Positions 50,799 to 64,000 of a stretch of 64,000 nt of DNA are shown here, in pieces; within the stretch, counting starts at the first letter, position 1; every line of letters begins with the position of its first letter. This stretch comes from Acidipropionibacterium acidipropionici (GTDB taxonomy: Bacteria; Actinomycetota; Actinomycetes; Propionibacteriales; Propionibacteriaceae), in NCBI RefSeq assembly GCF_001441165.1, contig NZ_CP013126.1, positions 1,083,551 to 1,147,550 on the forward strand, given 5' to 3'. The translations under genes were made by a program, and so were the position numbers. The notes below the pieces were generated by a model. The model ran no database searches. It had not been told where the DNA came from and saw only the letters and a list, made by a program, of their open reading frames with translations.

Positions 50799-51959
50799 TC
50801 AGCTCGGCAGCCTCATGAGCATGATCACGTGCTTGTAGTCGGTCTCCGACTCCCCCTCCAGATCGTTGACGCCGGTGACCAGGCAGGGCTTGCCGGGGGC
50901 GGTGAAGGCGAAGTCGACGTAGGGGGTGTCCAGGGCGCCGAGGGCGTCGGTGAGGTAGTGCGGGTTGAATCCCGCGGCGGTGATCGTGGGGTCTCCGTCG
51001 ACGTGGTCGACGACGGTGGCCTGGATGGCCTCGGAGGCCTGCGCCTGGTCTCCGGTGGCCGCCGACAGGGCGATGTCGTCCTCGTTGATGGACATTCGCA
51101 GCGAGGTGTTGCGCTCGGCCACCAGTGCGACGCGGCGCACGGCTGCCATGAGTTCGTCGGTGCGCACCCGCACCGATCGGGTGGCCTTGATGTCCATGAG
51201 GTGGCGCACCTTGGGGAACTCCCCGTCGAGCAGCCTGGTGGTCATCCGGCGGCTGCCGGAGGATCCGGTGCCCTCGAAGCCGACGAGTCCGTCGCCGGAG
51301 GCCCCGGACGACAGGTTGACGGTGACCTCCTCGCCCGAGGTCATGGAGCGGGCGGTCTCGTTGAGCACCTTGGCCGGCACCAGTGCGGTGGCCTCCAGGT
51401 CGGTGGCGGCAGGGTTCCAGGTGATCTCCTTGAGGGCCATCCGGTACCGGTCGGTGGCCAGCAGGGAAAGGGTGTCGCCCTCGATCTCGACGCGGACGCC
51501 GGTGAAGACGGGCAGCAGCTCGTCGCGTCCGGCGGCCACCACAACCTGGGCGACCGCCCTGGCGAAGATCTCGGCGGCGACGGTACCGGTGGCGGCGGGC
51601 ATCTCGGGCATCGCCGGGTACTCCTCGACCGGCAGCCCCTGGAGGGTGAACCGGGCGGATCCGCAGACCAGTTCCATCCGGGCGGGATCGGCGGTGATCT
51701 CGACGGGTTTGGCGGGCAGGGAGCGGGCGATGTCGGCGAGCAGCTTGCCGGAGACCAGCGACTCGCCCTCCTCGTCCACCTGGGCGGGCAGCGTGATCTG
51801 CCCGGTCGTCTCATTGTCTGAGCCCGACAGGACCACCGTGGAGCCCTCGGCCCTGACCAGCAGCCCCGCCAGGATCGGCACCGCGGGGCGGTTCGGAAGG
51901 GTGCGCGCCACCCAGGCGACCGCGTCGGCCATGACATCGCGTTCCAGACGGATCTTCAC
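50799..51959 (-). CDS. dnaN: DNA polymerase III beta sliding clamp
   Basis: 386 residues, three clamp folds. VKIRLERDVMADAVAWVARTL is the N-terminus; ATDRYRMALKEI and the C-terminal YKHVIMLMRLP are diagnostic. The GTG at 51959 follows AAGGGG; 13 upstream codons are unlikely to be translated. Between dnaN and oriC there is a two-gene ABC transporter, so dnaN no longer adjoins the origin directly. Confidence 0.96.
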   Translation of the reverse strand: MKIRLERDVMADAVAWVARTLPNRPAVPILAGLLVRAEGSTVVLSGSDNETTGQITLPAQVDEEGESLVSGKLLADIARSLPAKPVEITADPARMELVCGSARFTLQGLPVEEYPAMPEMPAATGTVAAEIFARAVAQVVVAAGRDELLPVFTGVRVEIEGDTLSLLATDRYRMALKEITWNPAATDLEATALVPAKVLNETARSMTSGEEVTVNLSSGASGDGLVGFEGTGSSGSRRMTTRLLDGEFPKVRHLMDIKATRSVRVRTDELMAAVRRVALVAERNTSLRMSINEDDIALSAATGDQAQASEAIQATVVDHVDGDPTITAAGFNPHYLTDALGALDTPYVDFAFTAPGKPCLVTGVNDLEGESETDYKHVIMLMRLPS

Positions 51960-52119
51960 GTGGATCCCCTTCTTCGGGTCAGGCTTGGTGCCAGGCACCG
52001 CAAGGTGCCTGCGTCCCGATCATATCCACGATCATCCGTGCGGGTCAGCTTCCCGGACCGCCTGTCACAACGTCGGCTTGAGGGTTGGACGCCGTGACCG
52101 GCGGGCGGCGTCTGCCTCC

Positions 52120-54804
52120 TCATTCGCTGGAGACCGCCTTGAGGATGTCGATCCTGGTGGCGCGCCGGGCCGGCCACACGGCGGCCAGGACGCCGACCAC
52201 CGCGGCTGCCGCCAGGAAGGCCAGCAGCTGGCCCCATGGCACCGACAGCACGGTGATCCCCTGGTCGGCCATGAGACGCTGCAGGGCGGCCCCGAATCCG
52301 ACTCCGAGGATGAGACCGACCGTGGCGCCGAGCAGCGAGATGATCACCGACTCCAGGGTGATCATGAGACGTATCTCGCGGCGTTTGAGGGCGATGGCGC
52401 GCAGCAGCCCGATCTCGCGGGTGCGTTCGATGATGGACAGTCCGAGTGTGTTGACGATGCCGAGGATGGCGATGACGATGCTCAGCCCCAGCAGGGCGTA
52501 AATGAACACCAGGATCTGGTCCACCTGGGAGGTCTGCTGGTCGGCGTACTCGTTGACGTCCATCACCGAGACCAGCGGGGTGTCGGCGGTGGCGTCCTCC
52601 AGACCGTTCTTCACCTGGGCGGGGTCGGCCCCGGGTGTCCGCTCGACGGAGATGAAACTCAGCTTCTTGTCCAGACCGAGGGGGCTGAGGGTGGAGGTCG
52701 ACGTCCAGTAGTCCGCCCCGGACTGGCCGTCCCCGGAGTCGTAGAGGCCCACGACGGTGAACTGGACGAGTTTCTGCCTGCTTGGGCTGTAGCCGAGCAC
52801 GGTGCCCCCGACCTCCAGGTGCTTCTGCTCGGCGACCTTCTGGTTGACGATGAGCTCGTCGGCGGCCTTGAAGGCCCTCCCGGAGGTGATCTTCTGGGGG
52901 TAGATCCGGTCGATGTCGCCGGGTTTCATGGCCCCGACGACCAGATAGGCGTCGCGGTCGCCGACGCCGTTGCGGATGTCGGGGATGGACCCGTCGGCCG
53001 GCACGTTGACCAGCAGGGTGGTGCTCATGGAGTGCACCGCGGAGACGCCGTCGACCTTGCCGGCGGCGTCGGCCACCGAGCGGGGGAACTGGGTGCCGGT
53101 CTGGGCGCCGATGAGGTAGTCGCCACGCAGGCTCTCGTGCACCGAATCGGTGACCGAGGCCTTCGCGGAGGCCCCGAAGACGGTCATGAGGGAGACCAGG
53201 GTGAGCCCGATCATGAGGGCCGACGCCGTCGCCGCGGTCCGCCTGGGCTGGCGGACGGAGTTCTTCTCCGCGAGCCGTCCCACCTCTCCGAACAGCATCC
53301 GGTAGAGGCGGCCGACGAGCCACACCACGGGCCGGCCGAGCAGAGGCGAGGCGATGGCCACCCCGATGGTCACCAGGCCCATCCCGACGCCGGCCCATAC
53401 GGCGTTGTGGCCGGGGTGGCCCCACAGTCCGATCACCATGGCGAGCAGCCCGAACAGGGCCATCGCCACTCCCGCCACGGCGCGGTCGCCGAGCCCCTGG
53501 GGTTTCTCGACGGCCGATCCGGTCATGGCTTCGACGGGGGGCACCTTGGTGGCCCGTTGGGCGGGCATGAGGGCGGCGACGATGGTGACCGCCACGCCGA
53601 CGACCAGGGAGATGACGACGGCGCGCAGGGGGACGGCGAGGCGGGAGACGCCCATGTCGTAGCCCGCCACCGCCATGAAGTACTTGATGAAATAGGCGAC
53701 GCCGACACCGGCGACCACGCCGAGGGCCGAGCCGGCCAGTCCGACGATGAGGGCCTCGACGAGGACGGTGGCGCGGATCTGGCGTCTCGACGCCCCGATG
53801 GCCCGGTAGAGGGCGAGTTCGCGCGATCTCTGGGCCACCAGGATCGAGAAGGTGTTGAGGATGAGGAAGGCGGCGACGACCAGGGAGATCCCGGCGAAGA
53901 TCAGCAGGAAGGTGTTGACGTACTGGAGGGCGTCGTTGATCTGGGAGCTGGTCTCGTCGGCGATGGTCTGGCCGTTGGTGGCCTTGAAGTTCTTCGGGAT
54001 GACGTCGTCGACCTGCCGGGCCACCTCGTCGCGGTCGGCGTCCGGGCTGGTCTGGACACCGATGCCGGTGAAGGCGTCGGATCCGTCGATGAAGAGCTCC
54101 TGGGCGCGGTGCTGGCTGAAGAACAGGTAGGAGGCGCCCGCGGAGCCTCCGGACCCCCAGGTCGCGGTGCCGACGACGGTCGCGGTGATGGTGCCGTCGT
54201 CGAGAGTGATGATGCGCATCCGGTCGCCGAGCCGGTACCCGGACTTCTCGAGAGTCTGCGGGTCGACGACCACCTCGGAGTCGCTGGTGGGGGCGTGCCC
54301 GGATTTGAGGACGACGCCGGGCTGGCCGCCGAAGGCCGGCAGGGTGTACCAGCTGAATCCGAGTTGAGGGGGCCCGAAGGAGGCGATGACGCGGCCGTCG
54401 CTGCCGATCGCGTGGACTCCGGTGGCCGAGACCGATCCCTGGACGCGGGTCACGCCGTCGAGGTGCCGGATCTTCTCGACCACCTCCGGTTTCAGGGTGG
54501 GGGTGGAGGTCTGCGCCGCCTCACCTCCATCTCCGCTGCCGGTGCTCCCGGCCTTGCCGCCGTCCTGGCCGCTGTTGCCGCCGTCGGCGCCTGCCCCGCT
54601 CGCCGAGGGGTTGACGGCGTTGTCGCGGGGCTGCACCTCGACGTCGGCCACGGTTCCCTTGACAATGGAGTCGAAGGATCCCTGGAGCATGTCGGTGAAG
54701 ATGAAGGAGCCGGCGACGAAGGCTACTCCGAGGACGACCGCGAGGGTCGACATGAGGAGTCGCAGTTTCCGGGCCCACAGCGACTTCCAGGTGGCGCGCC
54801 ACAT
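52120..54804 (-). CDS. FtsX/MacB-like ABC transporter permease
   Basis: 894 residues with the two-module FtsX arrangement: N-terminal helix (LLMSTLAVVLGVAFVAGSFIF), a large extracytoplasmic domain with a Gly/Ser-rich stretch (about 75-100), three helices at about 300-430, two more around 470-520, a second extracytoplasmic domain, and three C-terminal helices (FIYALLGLSIVIAILGIVNTL...). It partners the ATPase encoded 2 bp upstream. Such exporters move lipoproteins, peptides or antibiotics; the substrate is not evident. Confidence 0.9.
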   Translation of the reverse strand: MWRATWKSLWARKLRLLMSTLAVVLGVAFVAGSFIFTDMLQGSFDSIVKGTVADVEVQPRDNAVNPSASGAGADGGNSGQDGGKAGSTGSGDGGEAAQTSTPTLKPEVVEKIRHLDGVTRVQGSVSATGVHAIGSDGRVIASFGPPQLGFSWYTLPAFGGQPGVVLKSGHAPTSDSEVVVDPQTLEKSGYRLGDRMRIITLDDGTITATVVGTATWGSGGSAGASYLFFSQHRAQELFIDGSDAFTGIGVQTSPDADRDEVARQVDDVIPKNFKATNGQTIADETSSQINDALQYVNTFLLIFAGISLVVAAFLILNTFSILVAQRSRELALYRAIGASRRQIRATVLVEALIVGLAGSALGVVAGVGVAYFIKYFMAVAGYDMGVSRLAVPLRAVVISLVVGVAVTIVAALMPAQRATKVPPVEAMTGSAVEKPQGLGDRAVAGVAMALFGLLAMVIGLWGHPGHNAVWAGVGMGLVTIGVAIASPLLGRPVVWLVGRLYRMLFGEVGRLAEKNSVRQPRRTAATASALMIGLTLVSLMTVFGASAKASVTDSVHESLRGDYLIGAQTGTQFPRSVADAAGKVDGVSAVHSMSTTLLVNVPADGSIPDIRNGVGDRDAYLVVGAMKPGDIDRIYPQKITSGRAFKAADELIVNQKVAEQKHLEVGGTVLGYSPSRQKLVQFTVVGLYDSGDGQSGADYWTSTSTLSPLGLDKKLSFISVERTPGADPAQVKNGLEDATADTPLVSVMDVNEYADQQTSQVDQILVFIYALLGLSIVIAILGIVNTLGLSIIERTREIGLLRAIALKRREIRLMITLESVIISLLGATVGLILGVGFGAALQRLMADQGITVLSVPWGQLLAFLAAAAVVGVLAAVWPARRATRIDILKAVSSE

Positions 54805-54806
54805 GG

Positions 54807-55625
54807 TCAGCGCTCCACGGGTTCGGCGCGACCGCTGATCCCGGAGCTCTCGCTTCGTCGAGGTGCAGCCGGTTCGGCGTGCTGGGGCCGGCGGGCCTGG
54901 GAGTCGAGATGGGCCATGGTGGCCAGGACGTCGTCGCGGGTCGGGTCCTGGAGGTCCTCGACGATCCGGCCGTCGGCCAGGAAGAGGGCGCGGTCGGCGT
55001 AGGAGGCGGCGACCGGGTCGTGACTGACCATGACGATCGTCTGGCCCATGTCATTGACGCTGGAACGCAGGAACTCCAGCACCTCGGCCGATGAGGTGGA
55101 GTCCAGGTTGCCGGTGGGCTCGTCGGCGAAGATGATCTGAGGCCTGGTGACCAGGGCACGTGCGCAGGCGACGCGCTGCTGCTGGCCTCCCGACAGCTCC
55201 GAGGGCTTGTGGGAGAGCCGGTTCGCCAGGCCGACGGTCTCGATGACGTGGTCGTACCAGGCCGGGTCGGGCTTGCGCCCGGCGATCGCCAAGGGGAGGA
55301 GGATGTTCTCCCTGGCGGTGAGGGTGGGCACCAGGTTGAAGGACTGGAAGATGAATCCGATCCGGTCCCGGCGCAGTTCGGTCAGCGCGTTGTCCTTGAG
55401 TGTGGCGACGTCGGTCTCGCCGATGAAGGCCTGCCCCGAGGTGGGGCGGTCCAGGGCGGCCATGCAGTGCATGAGGGTGGACTTTCCGGATCCTGAGGGA
55501 CCCATCACGGCTGTGAACCGTCCTTCGTCGAAACTCACGTCGATGGCGTCCAGCGCGACGACCAGGGTGTCTCCCCGACCATAGGTCTTGGTGAGGGCGG
55601 CTGCTCGGGCTGCTGGTACTGCCAT
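54807..55625 (-). CDS. MacB/LolD-type ABC transporter ATP-binding protein
   Basis: 272 residues. Walker A GPSGSGKST, Q-loop FIFQSFNLVPTLTA, signature LSGGQQQRVACARAL, Walker B IIFADEPTGNLDS, H-loop VSHDP. A 50-residue C-terminal tail is Arg/Pro-rich. The ATG at 55625 follows GAGAGGATCCCC; an upstream in-frame extension of 62 codons runs toward oriC and has no coding character. The next gene is the FtsX-like permease. Confidence 0.92.
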   Translation of the reverse strand: MAVPAARAAALTKTYGRGDTLVVALDAIDVSFDEGRFTAVMGPSGSGKSTLMHCMAALDRPTSGQAFIGETDVATLKDNALTELRRDRIGFIFQSFNLVPTLTARENILLPLAIAGRKPDPAWYDHVIETVGLANRLSHKPSELSGGQQQRVACARALVTRPQIIFADEPTGNLDSTSSAEVLEFLRSSVNDMGQTIVMVSHDPVAASYADRALFLADGRIVEDLQDPTRDDVLATMAHLDSQARRPQHAEPAAPRRSESSGISGRAEPVER

Positions 55626-55799
55626 GGGGATCCTCTCGGGTGCGAGGTCGTGTCGGGCGATCCCGAATCGATCGTGGATCGATCCTGGACCGTCGCCGGC
55701 CGCGGGTTCCGGCTCAAGTGTGGCGCTGCGGACAAGGCCGATCGGCGGCGGGACGGCCGTACTGGCTCCTTGCTGCCATGGGATGAGGTGAGGCTGAAT

Positions 55800-56040
55800 G
55801 GCCCTATCCACAAGATGTGGGGTCAGTGTCTTGGAAGACCACTAGATGTATGTCTAGTCGCAGTAGTCGTCACCTCTGTGGAAGGTGTGGATAACTACTG
55901 TAATGCCTTGTCGGAAGCTCTTTCAGGGTGTGGACAGCGACGTGGACCGCGGTGGAGGGCGAGGGCGCCGATGTGGAGAAATCAGGCCTGTGGACAACTG
56001 TCCCCCGCGAATCCACCGGTTGTCCACAAGTCGTTGTGGA
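55800..56040. other. Chromosomal replication origin oriC
   Basis: A cluster of DnaA boxes in about 230 bp. Perfect boxes are TGTGGATAA at 55886-55894, TGTGGACAA at 55989-55997 and TTGTCCACA at 56020-56028. One-mismatch boxes are CTATCCACA at 55804-55812, TGTGGACAG at 55929-55937 and TGTGGAGAA at 55972-55980. Further two-mismatch sites lie near 55876 and 56035. It is upstream of the ABC-dnaN genes and next to the IS256 element that has taken the place where dnaA would normally stand. An AT-rich unwinding segment is not obvious; 55886-55915 is the least GC-rich part. Confidence 0.88.
55808..55854. promoter_or_regulatory. Two NrdR-like boxes at the oriC edge
   Basis: CCACAAGATGTGGGGT (55808-55823) and CCACTAGATGTATGTC (55839-55854) begin exactly 31 bp apart and share CCAC(A/T)AGATGT, close to the NrdR box and to the site before nrdD. 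The first overlaps a DnaA box. The second is part of ACTAGA/TCTAGT dyad symmetry (55841-55858). Confidence 0.4.
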
Positions 56041-56189
56041 GGGGGGCAACCCCCTTCGCTCGCGCAGGCGCTCGCTTACCCCCTGCCGTGGAGTCCGTGA
56101 AATTGGGGTAGGCAGCGGTGGCCACGCGCTGCGGGTCAGGTCTGTGACCGCGTTGCGGCGCTCGCCGCGCATACCTCAGGGCACAGGAG

Positions 56190-56197
56190 ACGAATTT
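56190..56197. repeat. 8-bp target duplication, oriC half
   Basis: ACGAATTT directly abuts the left end of the IS256 copy. The other flank of this copy is CTCGCGTT, which does not match; the matching 8 bp (as AAATTCGT) is at 63531-63538 beside the other IS copy. Confidence 0.75.
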
Positions 56198-57645
56198 AGT
56201 AGTGCCCCTTATGGTGGTGTAACCCGCTGGTGACCAGCCCGTCGGCCTCCGCGACTTCGTGGTGGACGGCAGCGCGGTCACCGTGTGATCCTTCGAGAAA
56301 GCTCTCTACTTCTCACTCGAAAGGAACAACCACGATGACCGCTGCCCATATTGTCGACCCTGCCCGGGTCCTGGACCAAGCCCTGGGCCAGGCCTCCCCG
56401 GACCTGTTGCGCTCACTGCTGGCCACGATGATCAACATGCTGCTGTCGGCCGATGCCGACCAGGTCGCCGGCGCGGAGTACGGCCGCCCCGATCCCGACC
56501 GCCTCGTCCAGCGCAACGGCTACCGTCACCGCGACCTGGACACCCGGGTCGGCACGGTGGATGTGGCGATCCCCAAGCTCCGCCAGGGCAGCTACTTCCC
56601 AGAGTGGCTGCTGGAGCGGCGCAAGCGCGCCGAGTCGGCGATGATCACCGTGGTCGCCGACGCCTACCTGGCCGGGGTCTCCACCCGCCGGATGGACAAG
56701 CTCGTCAAGCAGCTGGGTATCGACTCCTTGTCGAAGTCCCAGGTCTCGCGGATGGCCGCCGACCTCGACGCCCAGGTCGAGGCCTTCCGCCACAGGCCTC
56801 TGGGCGAGGCGGGCCCGTTCACGTTCGTGGCCGCTGACGCCCTGACGATGAAGGTCCGGGAAGCCGGACGGGTCATCAACGCGGTCGTGCTGACCGCGAC
56901 CGGGGTCAACGCTGACGGCCACCGGGAGGTCCTGGGCCTCCAGGTCGCCACCGCTGAGACCGGGCCGGCCTGGAACACGTTCTTCGCCGATCTGGTGGCC
57001 CGGGGCCTGTCCGGGGTGCGGCTGGTCACCTCGGATGCCCATGCCGGGCTGAGGGAGGCGATCGCGGCGAACCTGCCCGGGGCGGCCTGGCAGCGGTGCC
57101 GGACCCACTACGCGGCCAATCTGATGAGCGTGTGTCCCAAGAGCCTGTGGCCGGCGGTCAAGGCCATGCTCCACTCGGTCTACGACCAGCCCTCCGCGGC
57201 CGCCGTGGATGCCCAGTTCGACCGGCTGCTGGACTATGTGGAGGCCAAGCTTCCCCAGGTCCATGCCCATCTGGACGCCGCGCGGGCCGACCTGTTGGCG
57301 TTCACGAGTTTCCCGGTCGACGTGTGGCGCCAGATCTGGTCGAACAATCCCCAGGAGCGGCTGAACAAGGAGATCCGGCGGCGTACCGATGCCGTGGGGA
57401 TCTTCCCCAACAGGGAGGCCGTCATCCGGCTCGTCGGGGCCGTGCTGGCCGAGCAGACCGATGAGTGGGCCGAGGGCCGGCGCTACCTGGGCCTGGAGGT
57501 CCTGGAACGCTCACGGATCCCTCAGACCCCCGTCAGCGAAGACCAGACCCGCCTGGAAGGAGCAGACCCCATCCCACCCGAACTGACAGCCTGACCCCGT
57601 ATCGAAAGATCACGAAACGGATACACCACTACAAGGGACTTGACC
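56198..57645 (+). mobile_element. IS256-family insertion sequence, copy 1 (complete)
   Basis: 1448 bp. The imperfect terminal repeats (about 17 of 24 matching) share GTGGTGTA at positions 17-24 from each end. The 8-bp direct flank expected of IS256 is absent here: ACGAATTT on the left, CTCGCGTT on the right. That mismatch, with the match at copy 2, points to recombination between the copies. Confidence 0.88.
56335..57594 (+). CDS. IS256-family transposase (copy 1)
   Basis: 419 residues, Mutator/MULE-like transposase. DDE residues: Asp in FVAADALTMKVR, Asp in VRLVTSDAHAGLREAI, Glu in [30 protein letters not shown] is the conserved C/H region between. AAGGA lies 10 nt before the ATG. Intact, so the element could be active. 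Confidence 0.95.
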   Translation: MTAAHIVDPARVLDQALGQASPDLLRSLLATMINMLLSADADQVAGAEYGRPDPDRLVQRNGYRHRDLDTRVGTVDVAIPKLRQGSYFPEWLLERRKRAESAMITVVADAYLAGVSTRRMDKLVKQLGIDSLSKSQVSRMAADLDAQVEAFRHRPLGEAGPFTFVAADALTMKVREAGRVINAVVLTATGVNADGHREVLGLQVATAETGPAWNTFFADLVARGLSGVRLVTSDAHAGLREAIAANLPGAAWQRCRTHYAANLMSVCPKSLWPAVKAMLHSVYDQPSAAAVDAQFDRLLDYVEAKLPQVHAHLDAARADLLAFTSFPVDVWRQIWSNNPQERLNKEIRRRTDAVGIFPNREAVIRLVGAVLAEQTDEWAEGRRYLGLEVLERSRIPQTPVSEDQTRLEGADPIPPELTA

Positions 57646-57907
57646 TCGCGTTCACTATCGCATCAGGGGTTCGGGCGGCGGGCCGGATCAGGTGCCCACG
57701 ACACTTCAGAGCACCGGGCTCCTGGCACCCGCCGGTACCTCCAAGGAGTACCGCGCCACGGTCTCGACGACCCTCGACTCCATCGGCCGAACTCGGCCCA
57801 TCCTGGACAAGCCGTCCTCGCCCGTCAACACCATCCCCGCTCACATCCGCGCCCCCTGCCCAGGTGACCCCTGGCACAATGGGCCACCTGGGCTGGGACA
57901 TCAGCTC
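57646..57907. other. Space between IS256 and the guanidine riboswitch
   Basis: 262 bp with no supported gene. It includes a GC hairpin (CCAGGTGACC... GGCCACCTGG at about 57859-57890) that may belong to the gdx leader. Nothing else recognised. Confidence 0.4.
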
Positions 57908-57949
57908 GCCGGACGAGGGAGCCGTACCCGGACCGCGACAAGACGGCCA
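57908..57949 (+). promoter_or_regulatory. Guanidine-III riboswitch
   Basis: The sequence CCGGACGAGG (57909-57918), GCCGTACCCGG (57921-57931) and GACAAGACGGC (57936-57946) reproduces the compact pseudoknot consensus of the guanidine-III (ykkC-III) class in order and spacing. The ribosome site GGAGG (57952-57956) follows at once, so guanidine binding would control translation of gdx. Confidence 0.85.
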
Positions 57950-57961
57950 GTGGAGGTCGTC

Positions 57962-58276
57962 ATGCCGTGGATCGTGCTCATCGTGTCCGGATCCTTCGAG
58001 GCGGTCTGGGCCACCGCCCTTGATCGCACCCGGGGGTTCACCCGCCCACTCCCGATCATCGTCTTCCTCGTGGCCATGACCGCGAGCGTCACAGGCCTCG
58101 GCTACGCCCTGAGGACCCTGCCCACGGGCACCGCCTACGCCGTCTGGACGGCCGTCGGGGCGTCGCTCACCGTGGTCTACGCCATGATCACGGGCACTGA
58201 ACCGTTCTCCGTGGCGCGTGTGCTCCTGCTGGCCGGGATCGTCGGCTGCGTCATCGGTCTCAAGGCGCTTTCCTGA
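57962..58276 (+). CDS. gdx: Guanidinium exporter, SMR family
   Basis: 104 residues, four membrane helices. The N-terminus PWIVLIVSGSFEAVWATALDR has the essential membrane Glu (Glu13) and the Gdx/SugE-type motif before GFTRP; helix 3 ends TAYAVWTAVGAS. Dual-topology dimers exchange guanidinium for protons. The guanidine-III riboswitch directly upstream supports this over a multidrug role. GGAGG lies 6 nt before the ATG. It is convergent with jag, with a bidirectional hairpin between. Confidence 0.92.
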   Translation: MPWIVLIVSGSFEAVWATALDRTRGFTRPLPIIVFLVAMTASVTGLGYALRTLPTGTAYAVWTAVGASLTVVYAMITGTEPFSVARVLLLAGIVGCVIGLKALS

Positions 58277-58368
58277 GCCCGTCCGGTTCGCCCACCATGG
58301 CGGCGGTCGGCACACGCCACCTCACCCCTCTGCAGGCACAGACCGGACCCGGGCGAGGCGGATACGAC

Positions 58369-58409
58369 GATGCCCGGCCGCGAGGAATCACTCTTCGCGG
58401 CCGGGCATC
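58369..58409. terminator. Bidirectional terminator between gdx and jag
   Basis: Perfect 15-bp arms, GATGCCCGGCCGCGA (58369-58383) and its complement (58395-58409), 11-nt loop, between two convergent genes. Confidence 0.75.
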
Positions 58410-58496
58410 CGGTCACTCATCGTCTCGGGCCGCCCCCGGGGTCTGCGACCACGATGGTCGGGTCGGCAGTCTGCCCAACCGCCCGGTCGGACGGCG

Positions 58497-59123
58497 TCAG
58501 TCCTTCGAGATGACCACGTGGCGCTTCGGCTCGACGCCCTCGGACTCGCTGGTCAGCCCCGCCGCCGCGGCGGCGTCGTGGACGATCTTGCGCTCGAACG
58601 GGTTCATCGGCGCCAGGTGGGCCGGCTCCCCGGTCTCCTTGACGGCCTCGATGGCCTCGGTCGCCAGGATGAGCAGCTCCTTGCGCCGGGTCTCCCGGTA
58701 TCCGGCGACGTCGAGCATCAGCCTTGAACGGTGCCCGGTCTCGGTCATCACCGCTAGACGGGACAGCTCCTGGAGAGCCTCCAGAACCTTTCCGTCGTTG
58801 CCGACCAGGGTCTGGGACTCGGTGACGATGGAGATGTGGGCCCGGCTTCCCTCGACATAGGTGTCGATGTCGCCGTCGAGATCGGCGATGTCGAGAAGCT
58901 CCTCGAGGTAGTCGGCGGCGATGTCGCCCTCCTCCTCCAGGGGATCAGCGGGCTCATCGGACTCGTCGTCGTCCGAGTCCTCGTCCTCCTCGGAATCCTC
59001 CGACGCGACGTCCGAGTCCTCCTCGACCGGCTCGGGCTCGACGTCAGACTCCTCGGTCTCCACCTCGACGGCAACGACGGCAGAATCCTCATAGACGACG
59101 GTATCGACGCTCTCTTCGCTCAT
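58497..59123 (-). CDS. jag: Jag/KhpB RNA-binding protein
   Basis: 208 residues. A very acidic disordered N-terminal 75 residues, then a KH domain (VEGSRAHISIVTESQTLVGNDG split around the GxxG-like loop GNDGKVLEAL) and a C-terminal R3H domain (LAPMNPFERKIVHDAAAAAG). It binds RNA and affects cell division and envelope in Gram-positives. The ATG at 59123 has AGGA 9 nt upstream; an ATG at 59132 is too close to it. Normally rsmG follows; here gdx and an IS follow instead. Confidence 0.9.
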   Translation of the reverse strand: MSEESVDTVVYEDSAVVAVEVETEESDVEPEPVEEDSDVASEDSEEDEDSDDDESDEPADPLEEEGDIAADYLEELLDIADLDGDIDTYVEGSRAHISIVTESQTLVGNDGKVLEALQELSRLAVMTETGHRSRLMLDVAGYRETRRKELLILATEAIEAVKETGEPAHLAPMNPFERKIVHDAAAAAGLTSESEGVEPKRHVVISKD

Positions 59124-59210
59124 GACACTCATTCCTTCAACTGGCGGGCCCGCACGCCCGCGATCTGGTGGCGGCCGTCATGGCCGCCGGAGACATGGGG
59201 GTACGACGCC

Positions 59211-60302
59211 TCAGTGTTTGCGCTTGGCCCGTGACTGACGGGCCGGCTGCTGACGGCGGACGACCTGCGTACCGCCGTCGGCGGTCTTGCGCACGGTCTG
59301 ACGGGCGACTCCACCCTGGCGGGCGACCATCGGCCGGGAGTTCGGGTCAGCGGGGTCGGCGACGGCCACCGGGGTCGCCGTGACCTTCTTGCGACGGCGC
59401 TTCTCGCGACGCTCCCGCTCGATCTCGTCGGGATCCTTGCCCTTGGCGCGCATCCGCTCCTGCCAGTCGATGTAGGCGGGGGTGTTCGGCGTCGGGTTGT
59501 TCCGGATGAGGATCTCCTGCTGGCCCAGAGTCCAGATGTTCGACGCCGACCAGTAGAGCATGACGCCGATCGGGAAGCTCAGGCCGGTGAACAGGTACAT
59601 CAGCGGGAAGAGGTAGACCATCATCTTCTGCTGCTGGGCCATCGGCCCGGTCAGCGACTCCGGCGGCATGTTCTTGCGCATCAGCTGAAGCTGCGTGTAG
59701 AAGAGGGAGACCACCAGGATGATGATGAGCACCAGAGCGACGATCTGGGTGGCCCCGAAACCGTTGTTGATGGGCAGGAAGCGCCCGGCCAGCTCGGCGC
59801 CGAAGATCTTCGTGTGCTGCAGGGAGCTCACCAGATCGGGGTTGTCGACCATGAACTTGCCACGGGCGATACCGCGCGAGGCGCCGTCCAGCACCCGAAA
59901 CAGGGCCAGGAAGATCGGCATCTGCAGCAGCAGCGGCAGACACGACGCCGACGGATTGACGCCCTCCTCCTTGTAGAGGTTCATCATCTCCTGGCCGGCG
60001 CGCTCACGATCATCGCCGTACTTGTCCTGGATCGCCTTCATCTTCGGCTGGATGGCCTGCATCGACCGGGACGAGTTGATCTGCTTGACGAAGAGCGGGA
60101 TCAGCAGGATCCGGATGAAGATCGTCAGGAAGATGATGGCCAGTGCCCATGCCCAGCCGGAGCTCTGGCCGAGCACGCTGGACCACAGGTTGTGGAAGAG
60201 CACGAGCAGTCCGGAGACCGCCCAGTACAGCGGGATCATGATGGCGTGGCCAATGGATTGGATGCCATCCCACAGGCCAAGAATGACCATCGGGCTCATC
60301 AT
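59211..60302 (-). CDS. yidC: Membrane protein insertase YidC
   Basis: 363 residues with five to six membrane helices. The 60KD_IMP core includes IFLTIFIRILLIPLFVKQ with the conserved Arg in the groove, LLLQMPIFLALFRVL, and FPIGVMLYWSASNIWTLGQQ. The C-terminal 75 residues are strongly basic (ribosome contact). GAGGTGA precedes the ATG. Part of the rpmH-rnpA-yidD-yidC-jag operon. Confidence 0.95.
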   Translation of the reverse strand: MMSPMVILGLWDGIQSIGHAIMIPLYWAVSGLLVLFHNLWSSVLGQSSGWAWALAIIFLTIFIRILLIPLFVKQINSSRSMQAIQPKMKAIQDKYGDDRERAGQEMMNLYKEEGVNPSASCLPLLLQMPIFLALFRVLDGASRGIARGKFMVDNPDLVSSLQHTKIFGAELAGRFLPINNGFGATQIVALVLIIILVVSLFYTQLQLMRKNMPPESLTGPMAQQQKMMVYLFPLMYLFTGLSFPIGVMLYWSASNIWTLGQQEILIRNNPTPNTPAYIDWQERMRAKGKDPDEIERERREKRRRKKVTATPVAVADPADPNSRPMVARQGGVARQTVRKTADGGTQVVRRQQPARQSRAKRKH

Positions 60303-60320
60303 CAGTTCTCACCTCAGGTA

Positions 60321-60806
60321 TCAGTGGGCGCACCGTGAAACCGCGGGTTCGCCGACGGTTCGCTGATGCTTCCCGGGCCGGCGGGCCCGGGGGTGGTTCC
60401 AGTTCGCGGGTGCTCCCGCGGGTTCATCCGGGCCGGGTGGCCCGGGGATCGTGTCATGGTCCATGGACGCGGTTCCTTCCGCATCCGGACCCAATTGTGC
60501 CTCAACTGTCCGCTGGGCCTGACGCCGCTCCCACTCCTCGGCCTCTGGGGTGCCGGGGACCGGGTCGTAGCCGCCGTTCGACCAAGGATTGCAGCGCAGG
60601 ATCCGCCAGACGATCATCGGCGTCGCCCTCAGGACGCCGTGCACCTGCAGTGCGCGAAGACCGTAGGCCGAGCAGCTGGGCTTGTACTTGCAGACCTCGC
60701 CGTAGAGCGGGGAGATGAGAAGTCGCCAGGCCTTGACGAAGCCGATCGCCAGCCAGGTCACCGGCCTGAACCGGATCCTGCCGGGAACCTTCTCGATCCC
60801 GCTCAT
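60321..60806 (-). CDS. yidD: Membrane protein insertion efficiency factor YidD
   Basis: 161 residues. The core LISPLYGEVCKYKPSCSAYG and MIVWRILRCNPWSNGGYDPVP are the YidD signature with its conserved Cys. The 65-residue Pro/Gly/Arg-rich C-terminal extension is longer than usual. ATGA overlap with rnpA. Confidence 0.92.
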   Translation of the reverse strand: MSGIEKVPGRIRFRPVTWLAIGFVKAWRLLISPLYGEVCKYKPSCSAYGLRALQVHGVLRATPMIVWRILRCNPWSNGGYDPVPGTPEAEEWERRQAQRTVEAQLGPDAEGTASMDHDTIPGPPGPDEPAGAPANWNHPRARRPGKHQRTVGEPAVSRCAH

Positions 60807-61282
60807 GCTCGGTGATCCCGTGCCGAGGCACGGTCCTTGGTGAGCCCGGAGGTACGGGTCTCGAGCTTGCGCAGCGCCCCCGACCAGGCGGAGCCGAGGT
60901 CGTCGGCCAGTCTCTCCGGGCGCGCAGAAGACCCCGGCAACGCCCTCACCACGAGGAGGGTGTGATCCGGGGTGGTTCGCAGAAGGTCTCGGCTGAGGTG
61001 ACGCAGCCGCCGCTTGACCCGGTTGCGGGTCACGGCGTTGCCGACCGCCTTGGAGACGATGAAACCGACCCTCGGATCGGCCTCGGTCACCTCCAGAGGG
61101 GACAGTGCATTTCTGGAGGGCAATGAGTTGTCCACAGGGTCTGTGGACAACTCGGATGTTCTCGTGGGCTGCGCCTGCCTGGCGGCATGGACGACAACTG
61201 TCGGGCGACCGGCCCGCACCCCGCACCGCACCACGGTCCGGAACTCACCGGACCGGTGCACCCGGGAGCGGGCTGGAAGCAT
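60803..61282 (-). CDS. rnpA: Ribonuclease P protein component, with an inserted segment
   Basis: 159 residues against about 120 normally. Family core: RVHRSGEFRTVVRCG at the start and PRVGFIVSKAVGNAVTRNRV followed by KRRLRH, the RNA-binding arginine-rich motif. About 30 extra residues (about 36-68) separate the first strand from PRVGF. Part of this segment (STDPVDNS) is encoded by an inverted pair of DnaA boxes. Start ATG follows GAGGG. It completes RNase P with the catalytic RNA, not in this window. Confidence 0.92.
   Translation of the reverse strand: MLPARSRVHRSGEFRTVVRCGVRAGRPTVVVHAARQAQPTRTSELSTDPVDNSLPSRNALSPLEVTEADPRVGFIVSKAVGNAVTRNRVKRRLRHLSRDLLRTTPDHTLLVVRALPGSSARPERLADDLGSAWSGALRKLETRTSGLTKDRASARDHRA
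61125..61153. promoter_or_regulatory. Inverted pair of consensus DnaA boxes inside rnpA
   Basis: TTGTCCACA (61128-61136) and TGTGGACAA (61142-61150) form a perfect 12-bp inverted repeat (GAGTTGTCCACA and complement) with a 5-nt centre, in the coding part that is additional to the RnpA family. Confidence 0.7.
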
Positions 61283-61292
61283 GGGTGAGCCC

Positions 61293-61427
61293 TCAGGCCG
61301 TCAGCTTGGCGCGTCCCCTGCGGCGGCGAGCGGCCACGATGGACCGGCCGGAACGGGTACGCATCCGAGCGCGGAACCCGTGGTTACGGGCGCGACGACG
61401 GTTGCTGGGCTGGAAAGTGCGCTTCAC
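61293..61427 (-). CDS. rpmH: 50S ribosomal protein L34
   Basis: 44 residues: [20 protein letters not shown] then [20 protein letters not shown], unmistakable L34. The GTG at 61427 follows GGGAG. First gene of the operon; divergent from dnaA across 435 bp. Confidence 0.97.
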
Positions 61428-61670
61428 GGGGATATTCTCCCTTGTATCTTGAGGATCACCCGGGGCGGTCGACGATGCCGTCTCCGTATTCCGGGGCGCC
61501 CGGTCGGGCGCATCAGAAAGGCGTCGCCGTAGGCAGCGACTGGTCAACGATACGAGCACGACCCCCCTTCGGGCAAACCGGACAGCCACGACGCCGGCCC
61601 CGGCAGACCGAATCGATCCGCCCCTGCGAAGGGACACGCCGAGCCGTCGCAGGAAGAGGGGCCGAACCGG

Positions 61671-61762
61671 TTGCACCTGCCCCCATGCGTTGTTAGCGTC
61701 ACCGACTACGGACAGGCCGCTGTCCACAGCTACGATGTCCTGTGGATAACGATGTGGACAAC
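61671..61762 (+). promoter_or_regulatory. dnaA promoter and DnaA boxes
   Basis: TTGCAC (61671-61676), 17 bp, TAGCGT (61694-61699) is the best promoter. Downstream lie CTGTCCACA (61720-61728, one mismatch), TGTGGATAA (61741-61749) and TGTGGACAA (61754-61762), suited to autoregulation by DnaA. The rest of the rpmH-dnaA space (61428-61670) shows no gene; rpmH signals there were not resolved. Confidence 0.6.
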
Positions 61763-61862
61763 TTGGGGACGGCCGTCCTCGGACCGCACCGCAGGCCGGT
61801 GAGCAGGGCTGATTCAACACAGCACGGCCGGGAACGACGAACGACGGGGACAAGGTGGTGGC

Positions 61863-63401
61863 ATGAGTGATGCGCAATCCACTGGTGGGTTCAGACCTGT
61901 CAGCCACTCCGAAGGCGCGAATCCGCCGGTGACGCATCCCGACGCCATCCTGCCTCCCCCGATGAGCGCCCAGACCCCGGTGGACCCGGCGGCCGAGCTC
62001 AACGAGGCCTGGACGACGATCACCCGCAAGGTGACCCCGGCCAACCGCGCCTGGCTCACCAACAGCCAGCCCGTCACCATGCACACCTCCACCGCGATGA
62101 TCGCGGTGCCCAACGAGTTCACCCGCGACCGCATCGAGACCAAGATGCGCAGTGAGCTCGAGGAACTCCTCTCCGACCACTTCCGGCGTCCCATCCACCT
62201 GGCCATCACGATCGACGCCGATCTCGAGCTGGCTCTGGGAGCCCCTGACAGCCCCGACGATCAGGAGGAGGAGCTCCCTCCGTCCAACTTCGTCCCCAAG
62301 GTCAACCCCGGCGACCCCGACGTCGTCCAGCTCGATCCCAGGACCCCTGAGAACCAGGCCGCCGACCTCAACGGCTCGGTCCGGCTCAATCCCAAGTACA
62401 CCTTCGACTCCTTCGTCATCGGGGCCTCCAACCGCTTCGCCCACGCCGCCGCGGTGGCCGTCGCGGAGTCCCCCGGCAAGTCGTACAACCCGCTCATGAT
62501 CTACGGCGGATCGGGCCTCGGCAAGACCCACCTGCTGCACGCCATCGGCCATTACGTCGTGAACTACTACGACAAGGTGAGGGTGCGCTACGTCTCCACC
62601 GAGGAACTCACCAACGACTTCATCAACGCGATCGGCACCAACACCGCCAACGAGTTCCGGCGCGCCTATCGCGACGTCGACGTCCTGCTTGTCGACGACA
62701 TCCAGTTCCTGGAGAAGAAGATCCAGACCCAGGAGGAGTTCTTCCACACCTTCAACACCCTCCACAACGCCCAGAAGCAGATCGTGATGACCTCCGACCG
62801 GCCGCCGAAGCTGCTGGAGGCCCTCGAGCCGCGCCTGCGCAGCCGCTTCGAGTGGGGGCTGATGACCGACATCCAGCCCCCGGACCTGGAGACCAGGATC
62901 GCCATCCTGCGGCGCAAGATCTCCTCGGAGCGGCTGACCGTCAGCCCCGATGTGCTGGAGTTCATCGCCAGCCGGATCCAGACCAATATCCGCGAGCTCG
63001 AGGGCGCCCTCATCCGGGTCACCGCCTTCGCCAGCCTCAACCGGCAGCCGGTCGACATGTCGCTCGCCGAGGTCGTGCTCAAGGATCTGATGCCCGACGG
63101 CCAGGACTCCCCGGTCACCGCGGAGCGGATCATCAACGAGACCGCCGGCTACTTCGGCATCAGCCGCGAGGATCTGCTGGGCACCTCCCGCACCCAGACC
63201 GTCGTCACCGCCCGCCAGATCGCGATGTACCTGTGCCGAGAGCTCACCGACCTGTCGCTGCCGAAGATCGGCGCGGAGTTCGGTGGCAAGGACCACACCA
63301 CCGTGATGCACGCCGACCGGAAGATCCGCTCGATGATGGGGGAACGCCGGCAGATCTTCAACCAGGTCTCCGAGCTCACGAACAGGATCAAACAGAGCTG
63401 A
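61863..63401 (+). CDS. dnaA: Chromosomal replication initiator DnaA
   Basis: 512 residues. Domain I (about 40-125), a short acidic domain II, AAA+ domain III with Walker [10 protein letters not shown] (Lys about 221), Walker [10 protein letters not shown] (about 274-282), and C-terminal domain IV with the DNA-binding signature [14 protein letters not shown]. It opens oriC by binding the boxes at 55.8-56.0 kb. Standard position is directly beside oriC and reading toward dnaN; here it is 6 kb away and reads away, in a segment flanked by inverted IS256 copies. The gene itself and its 5' signals look undamaged. Confidence 0.97.
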
Positions 63402-63476
63402 GGGGATAACCCCTTCGGAACCCCACTCTCGCAACTCTGTTGGTGGGCAGGTCGCTGCCCCGGGCCGGTCCGGATC

Positions 63477-63530
63477 CCCGCTCAACGGGGGTTTGCGTCG
63501 CGCTAGGGCCGCAAACCCCCGTTGAGCGGG
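63477..63530. terminator. Terminator hairpin downstream of dnaA
   Basis: Perfect 21-bp arms (63477-63497 and 63510-63530) around a 12-nt loop. The arms contain CCCGCTCAAC and GTTGAGCGGG, the same half-site as the hairpin at 39718-39789. The IS256 target site begins at the next base. Confidence 0.8.
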
Positions 63531-63538
63531 AAATTCGT
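63531..63538. repeat. 8-bp target duplication, dnaA half
   Basis: AAATTCGT, the complement of ACGAATTT at 56190-56197, directly beside the IS256 right end. Confidence 0.75.
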
Positions 63539-64000
63539 GGTCAAGTCCCTTGTAGTGGTGTATCCGTTTCGTGATCTTTCGATACGGGGTCAGGCTGTCA
63601 GTTCGGGTGGGATGGGGTCTGCTCCTTCCAGGCGGGTCTGGTCTTCGCTGACGGGGGTCTGAGGGATCCGTGAGCGTTCCAGGACCTCCAGGCCCAGGTA
63701 GCGCCGGCCCTCGGCCCACTCATCGGTCTGCTCGGCCAGCACGGCCCCGACGAGCCGGATGACGGCCTCCCTGTTGGGGAAGATCCCCACGGCATCGGTA
63801 CGCCGCCGGATCTCCTTGTTCAGCCGCTCCTGGGGATTGTTCGACCAGATCTGGCGCCACACGTCGACCGGGAAACTCGTGAACGCCAACAGGTCGGCCC
63901 GCGCGGCGTCCAGATGGGCATGGACCTGGGGAAGCTTGGCCTCCACATAGTCCAGCAGCCGGTCGAACTGGGCATCCACGGCGGCCGCGGAGGGCTGGTC
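63539..64000 (-). mobile_element. IS256-family insertion sequence, copy 2 (cut by the window edge)
   Basis: The right-hand 462 bp of the same element as copy 1, in the opposite orientation and, as far as compared by eye, the same in sequence. Its other end lies beyond the window. Confidence 0.88.
63590..64000 (-). CDS. IS256-family transposase (copy 2, partial)
   Basis: C-terminal 136 residues, the same as copy 1, including the catalytic Glu region [19 protein letters not shown]. The N-terminal part is outside the window. Confidence 0.92.

Follow-up and report, generated by a model that had tools for sequence, protein, structure and literature searches.

Chromosomal inversions that arise by recombination between inverted copies of an insertion sequence (IS) are a well-known kind of event, with identical copies of opposite orientation at the breakpoints, exchanged target duplications and relatives that keep the uninverted order. 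Here we describe a locus of Acidipropionibacterium acidipropionici that shares these features, and in which an inversion of this kind most likely flipped a block carrying dnaA, the gene of the replication initiator. The locus lies in a stretch of 64,000 nucleotides (the window; positions 1083551-1147550 of the single 3,651,382-bp contig NZ_CP013126.1, genome G000), and the block is bracketed by two IS256-family elements, referred to below as copies 1 and 2. In contrast to the usual IS-mediated inversion, the block carries the initiator gene, abuts the origin and, at 5.9 kb, is small; it sits on one side of oriC instead of being centred on it, and it is this target that is unusual.

The arrangement is also reminiscent of composite transposons of the Tn4001 type, in which two inverted IS256-family copies likewise surround unique genes. 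Here, however, the cargo consists of housekeeping genes, and the outer flanks of copies 1 and 2 do not match each other, so that there is no sign that the block moved as a unit. In E. coli and other bacteria whose dnaA is unlinked from oriC, DnaA acts in trans, as it would in G000; unlike those bacteria, the family of A. acidipropionici keeps the linkage (122 of 126 genomes), and dnaA of G000 is still less than 6 kb from oriC. Replication-associated inversions that are symmetric about the origin, as presented in the available part of PMC9584773, resemble this locus in that the origin region is inverted, but they exceed 50 kb and were described in genomes rotated to dnaA, whereas here dnaA itself is flipped.

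Contig NZ_CP013126.1 is given as a complete genome in the genome table of PMC6920887, a source available in part. A separate assembly represents strain ATCC 4875 (3,656,170 bp); according to the accessible portion of PMC3534718, its scaffolds were ordered against P. acnes and dnaA was set at the start. Searches of the open-licence literature, with term sets that were partly narrow, returned no title on a dnaA-block inversion in this genome, the available parts of PMC3534718, PMC6920887 and PMC6090647 make no mention of a flipped dnaA block, and none of six terms tried occurs in PMC7650540.

Results

The flanks of copies 1 and 2 match reciprocally

The contig holds 13 matches to the IS. Ten are full-length, with 1448 bp in nine cases and 1446 bp in one, and the transposase is of the Mutator/IS256 type (Pfam Transposase_mut, E = 2.6e-132, residues 7-380 of 419). 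Copies 1 and 2 lie in opposite orientation and bracket 57646-63538, a pattern that is real and that the original prediction had read correctly in outline. None of their 1448 bases differs, and among the seven other 1448-bp copies the nearest differs at 6 bases. Perfect 8-bp target duplications are present at four of the ten full-length copies; between copies 1 and 2 the duplications are swapped. Four partnerless copies have unmatched 8-bp flanks, which suggests other past rearrangements or flank loss.

Read in the sense of the IS, the left and right flanks are ACGAATTT and TCGCGTTC for copy 1, and TCGCGTTT and ACGAATTT for copy 2. The left end of each copy pairs with the right end of the other, at 8/8 and 7/8 positions. 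With 8-mers drawn from 20 stretches of G000, so good a reciprocal match is expected by chance ~6e-6 times over the 45 copy pairs; among the ten full-length copies, no other left-right combination of different copies came closer than 2 mismatches. Independent insertion of each copy without an inversion can be discarded, since neither copy's own flanks match and the flanks match across copies.

These results bear out the earlier observations that the flanks of copy 1 are unmatched and that the complement of its left flank, AAATTCGT, lies at the inner end of copy 2. The right flank of copy 1 had been quoted one base off, as CTCGCGTT, of which the C belongs to the IS. For the outer flank of copy 2, AACGCGAG had been predicted; the sequence present there is AAACGCGA, which agrees at 7/8 positions with the complement of the true right flank of copy 1. 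Flanking of copy 2 by AAATTCGT on both sides, which had been named as the mark of an independent insertion, was not seen.

Flipping the block gives the gene order of relatives

We compared G000 with four other Acidipropionibacterium genomes (G001, G002, G003 and G004), one genome per species. In G001, G003 and G004 the order is parB-parA-rsmG-jag-yidC-yidD-rnpA-rpmH, dnaA, oriC, two ATP-binding cassette (ABC) transporter genes, dnaN, a DUF6226 gene and recF, and flipping 57646-63538 in G000 yields this same order; in the fourth genome, G002, the block is displaced. That a flip would restore the standard order had been predicted, and this is the case for three of the four other genomes of the genus; dnaN, however, does not stand directly beside oriC in the relatives, where the ABC pair, unmentioned in the prediction, lies between them.

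At the edge between dnaA and oriC (site A), G004 carries GGAGACGGATTTCCCGCTCAACGGGGG between dnaA and the DnaA boxes, in the form of an unfilled site. Its two parts are found in G000 at 56190 and 63531, 7.3 kb apart and each adjoining an IS, and on the dnaA side the match to G004 is strong. A long, near-perfect palindrome, recognized by eye, occupies 63476-63530, 3' of dnaA, and adjoins the IS insertion site; G004 has a weaker version of it. At the other edge (site B), the flip calls for an ancestral place of the small multidrug resistance (SMR) gene between jag and rsmG, and G004 has SMR-like DNA there.

Past the window end, beyond copy 2, we found rsmG-parA-parB, as had been anticipated; rsmG and parA are separated by a third IS256 copy (copy 3), which has an intact target duplication. 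Of the ten IS256 copies, three are thus located within 11.8 kb at the origin (from 56198). Copies 2 and 3 form inverted repeats around rsmG and copies 1 and 3 direct repeats around dnaA-rsmG, so that recombination between the latter two would excise essential genes.

The putative origin stayed on the dnaN side

A scan of the 64-kb window for DnaA boxes (TTGTCCACA, at most one mismatch) gave 15 sites versus 6.8 expected, with six clustered at 55727-56028 and five at 61128-61761. Alignment of the five genomes showed that the first cluster is conserved and lies beside the ABC genes, on the dnaN side, in all five, even in G000 and G002, where dnaA has moved away from it. Because it is conserved in these five genomes, we take this cluster, near 55.8-56.0 kb, as the putative oriC. 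The five sites at 61128-61761, two of which fall within rnpA and the other three upstream of dnaA, travelled with the block. A repeat at 56027-56168, in the interval from the DnaA boxes to copy 1, has at least 20 further partial matches in G000, and G004 is devoid of much of the corresponding stretch.

The dnaA start codon is now ~5.8 kb from the oriC core, as compared to ~3.3 kb, by coordinates, if the block is flipped back and the IS kept. The order does differ from that of most relatives in the genus, as predicted, but the claim that dnaA has been separated from oriC was overstated; 'separated' applies in a mild sense, and the shift in position and gene dose is small. By coordinates, a fork leaving oriC on the block side is co-directional with dnaA and runs head-on into rpmH-jag, in agreement with the original prediction, and the opposite applies to the unflipped order. 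The larger change is one of direction, not of distance.

The plot of guanine-cytosine (GC) skew that had been proposed as a check was run, and is ambiguous at this scale. Skew in sampled stretches is negative on the left arm and positive over 1.12-1.91 Mb, and three window stretches just left of the putative oriC gave values of +0.021, +0.077 and -0.013, two of which are opposite in sign to what an origin at precisely this place would give. The skew of the block is now -0.047, and merely tracks the strands of its genes, as in G004.

Gene content of the region

Coordinates are collected in Table 1. Gene names are backed by Pfam for rpmH, rnpA, yidD, yidC, jag, dnaA, dnaN, recF (RecF/SMC N-terminal domain), gyrB and gyrA. 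DnaA is 98% identical in amino acid sequence to its counterpart in G004 over residues 34-512, and the rpmH-dnaA intergenic region shares 355 of 471 alignment columns with that genome, unaligned ends counted. The FtsX/MacB-type ABC permease gene occupies the same place in G001, G002, G003 and G004.

Table 1. Features of the dnaA-oriC region of G000, in window coordinates
Feature	Position	Strand	Details and basis
Block between copies 1 and 2, most likely inverted	57646-63538		5893 bp; reciprocal flanks and gene order in relatives
IS256-family copy 1	56198-57645	+	1448 bp; transposase open reading frame 56335-57594; Pfam Transposase_mut
IS256-family copy 2	63539-64986 (63539-64000 inside the window, rest past its end)	-	
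Flank to the left of copy 1 (one half of target duplication A)	56190-56197	+	ACGAATTT; the unfilled site of G004 has ACGGATTT
Flank to the right of copy 1 (one half of target duplication B)	57646-57653	+	TCGCGTTC
Flank at the inner end of copy 2, complementary to 56190-56197	63531-63538	+	AAATTCGT
Putative oriC core	55812-56030		DnaA-box cluster, conserved in five genus genomes, left on dnaN side
dnaA, intact, 512 amino acids	61863-63401	+	Pfam Bac_DnaA, Bac_DnaA_C
rpmH-dnaA intergenic region with DnaA boxes	61428-61862		Moved intact with dnaA; boxes at 61720, 61741, 61753
rpmH (ribosomal protein L34)	61293-61427	-	Pfam
rnpA	60803-61282	-	Pfam
yidD	60321-60806	-	Pfam
yidC	59211-60302	-	Pfam 60KD_IMP
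jag (R3H domain)	58497-59132	-	
SMR family gene	57962-58276	+	Pfam Multi_Drug_Res; ancestrally between jag and rsmG
ABC transporter ATPase beside oriC	54807-55811	-	Pfam ABC_tran
FtsX/MacB-type permease of an ABC transporter, between oriC and dnaN	52120-54804	-	Pfam FtsX, MacB_PCD
dnaN (DNA polymerase III sliding clamp)	50799-51998	-	Pfam DNA_pol3_beta domains

Linkage in the family and the displaced block of G002

We searched dnaA and dnaN in 137 genomes of the family, drawn evenly from a larger group, with E-value cut-offs of 1e-90 and 1e-60. The searches found dnaA in 133 genomes, dnaN in 131 and both in 129, of which three were excluded because the two genes are on different contigs. Among the 126 genomes scored, dnaN is downstream of dnaA, on the same strand and within 12 kb, in 122. 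G000 departs from this arrangement, as do G002, G029 and G075. In G029, dnaN-recF is inverted and ~40 kb from dnaA, and in G075 recF-dnaN is inverted beside dnaA. G002, G029 and G075 are drafts, and no runs of N were present in the eight stretches checked.

In G002 (30 contigs, 86% complete), the jag-yidC-yidD-rnpA-rpmH/dnaA block lies ~30 kb away from a region that reads rsmG-oriC-ABC-dnaN (contig C2, 264-270 kb and 298-304 kb), with its orientation kept. Two of the five Acidipropionibacterium genomes, G000 and G002, are thus exceptions, and they share the same two gene-level edges (rsmG/jag and dnaA/oriC). The flanks of the G002 block match DNA from other places in relatives. As regards an IS mechanism in G002, a comparison of its three junctions, each taken with 600-700 surrounding bases, gave no common 13-mer, and no transposase was recognized by eye among the open reading frames flanking the junctions, which were not scanned with Pfam.

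Discussion

An IS256-mediated inversion is most likely truly present at this locus. We consider it probable that it came about through two IS256 insertions at the block edges, followed by recombination that flipped the 5.9-kb block. One element would have inserted between dnaA and oriC, duplicating ACGAATTT (duplication A), and a second one, in the opposite orientation, between the SMR gene and rsmG, duplicating TCGCGTTY (duplication B). Recombination between both copies would then have flipped the jag-yidC-yidD-rnpA-rpmH/dnaA block and exchanged the outer flanks, as the flanks themselves suggest. The DnaA-box cluster stayed with the ABC genes and dnaN, and dnaA moved intact with its upstream region, so that DnaA, as a diffusible protein, should still reach oriC, in line with established knowledge. 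The original prediction had already invoked recombination between two elements: its inversion is supported by the reciprocal flanks, the order in relatives and the unfilled site of G004, but recombination as opposed to replicative transposition is not established.

Several points weigh against this explanation. Duplication B carries one mismatch, and the four of ten IS copies with unmatched flanks and no partner indicate that flanks can be lost otherwise in this genome. On the oriC side of site A, G000 matches G004 by only a few bases, followed by a long stretch missing from G004 and then by a strong match; at site B there is no non-coding junction alignable with G004, and only gene order and flanks testify there. 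The turning point of the GC skew is blurred over ~1.03-1.12 Mb, and neither supports nor refutes the inversion. Lastly, the evidence stems from one assembly of one strain of the species, in which a flip by the assembler would leave the same flanks, and the identity of both copies fits a one-step replicative event equally well.

In an assembled sequence, a fixed inversion has the same appearance as a mixed population or an assembly flip, and we agree with the earlier caution that a switch across near-identical copies would look the same, all the more as the copies are identical over 1448 bp. In the case of an orientation error, the gene order in the cell would be the standard one, both edges would carry an IS, and the 5.9-kb block would have been placed backwards during assembly; no base inside the 1448 identical bp could phase the block, and flipping it in silico gives exactly the observed flanks. 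We nevertheless judge such an error unlikely, given that the genome is listed as complete (PMC6920887, in its available part), that ten full-length IS copies were placed in one contig, and that the other eight copies do not show the swapped flanks that wider mis-joining would produce. It would also be unlikely if reads longer than ~1.5 kb were used.

In a one-step replicative intramolecular transposition, a lone IS256 at one of the edges would have attacked the opposite one in inverted orientation, and in so doing would have copied itself and turned the block around. Such an event likewise predicts an exchange of flanks between donor and target. It also predicts copies that are identical at birth, in agreement with 0/1448 differences and 6 to the nearest other copy; duplication B, which is imperfect, would then represent the older donor, and the perfect duplication A the new target. 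IS256-family elements, however, are generally held to transpose via circular intermediates, which leave ordinary duplications and no adjacent inversion; for this reason we rank the one-step event below recombination, and regard it as distinctly improbable. Recombination between the two copies, by contrast, overlaps with a further scenario, in which both orientations coexist and the block flips back and forth as a phase-variable origin block. For RecA-dependent flipping, a pair of identical inverted repeats at a distance of 5.9 kb is a standard substrate. In the related P. freudenreichii, transposon-mediated inversions and population diversity due to translocation of transposase genes have been reported (PMC5644110, available in part). 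The single assembled sequence, however, gives no sign of coexisting orientations, and we see only a small chance that they occur.

Taken with G002, the locus raises the possibility, which we hold very tentatively, that the dnaA-rpmH-jag block of Acidipropionibacterium is a movable module loosened from oriC, flipped by IS256 in one species, perhaps reversibly, and displaced by 30 kb in another. The G002 case makes the genus worth a closer look. G000, with its flipped block, and G002, with a block moved by 30 kb, are close relatives in which one may ask whether the linkage of dnaA to oriC and the direction of dnaA matter. Some analyses rotate and orient genomes by dnaA, as in the accessible part of PMC9584773, and in G000 this would be expected to set the wrong polarity relative to oriC. 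Should the flip be reversible, the dnaA and rpmH operons would alternate in cells between head-on and co-directional replication, and the locus would provide a natural experiment on the reason for which dnaA stays next to oriC in almost all relatives.

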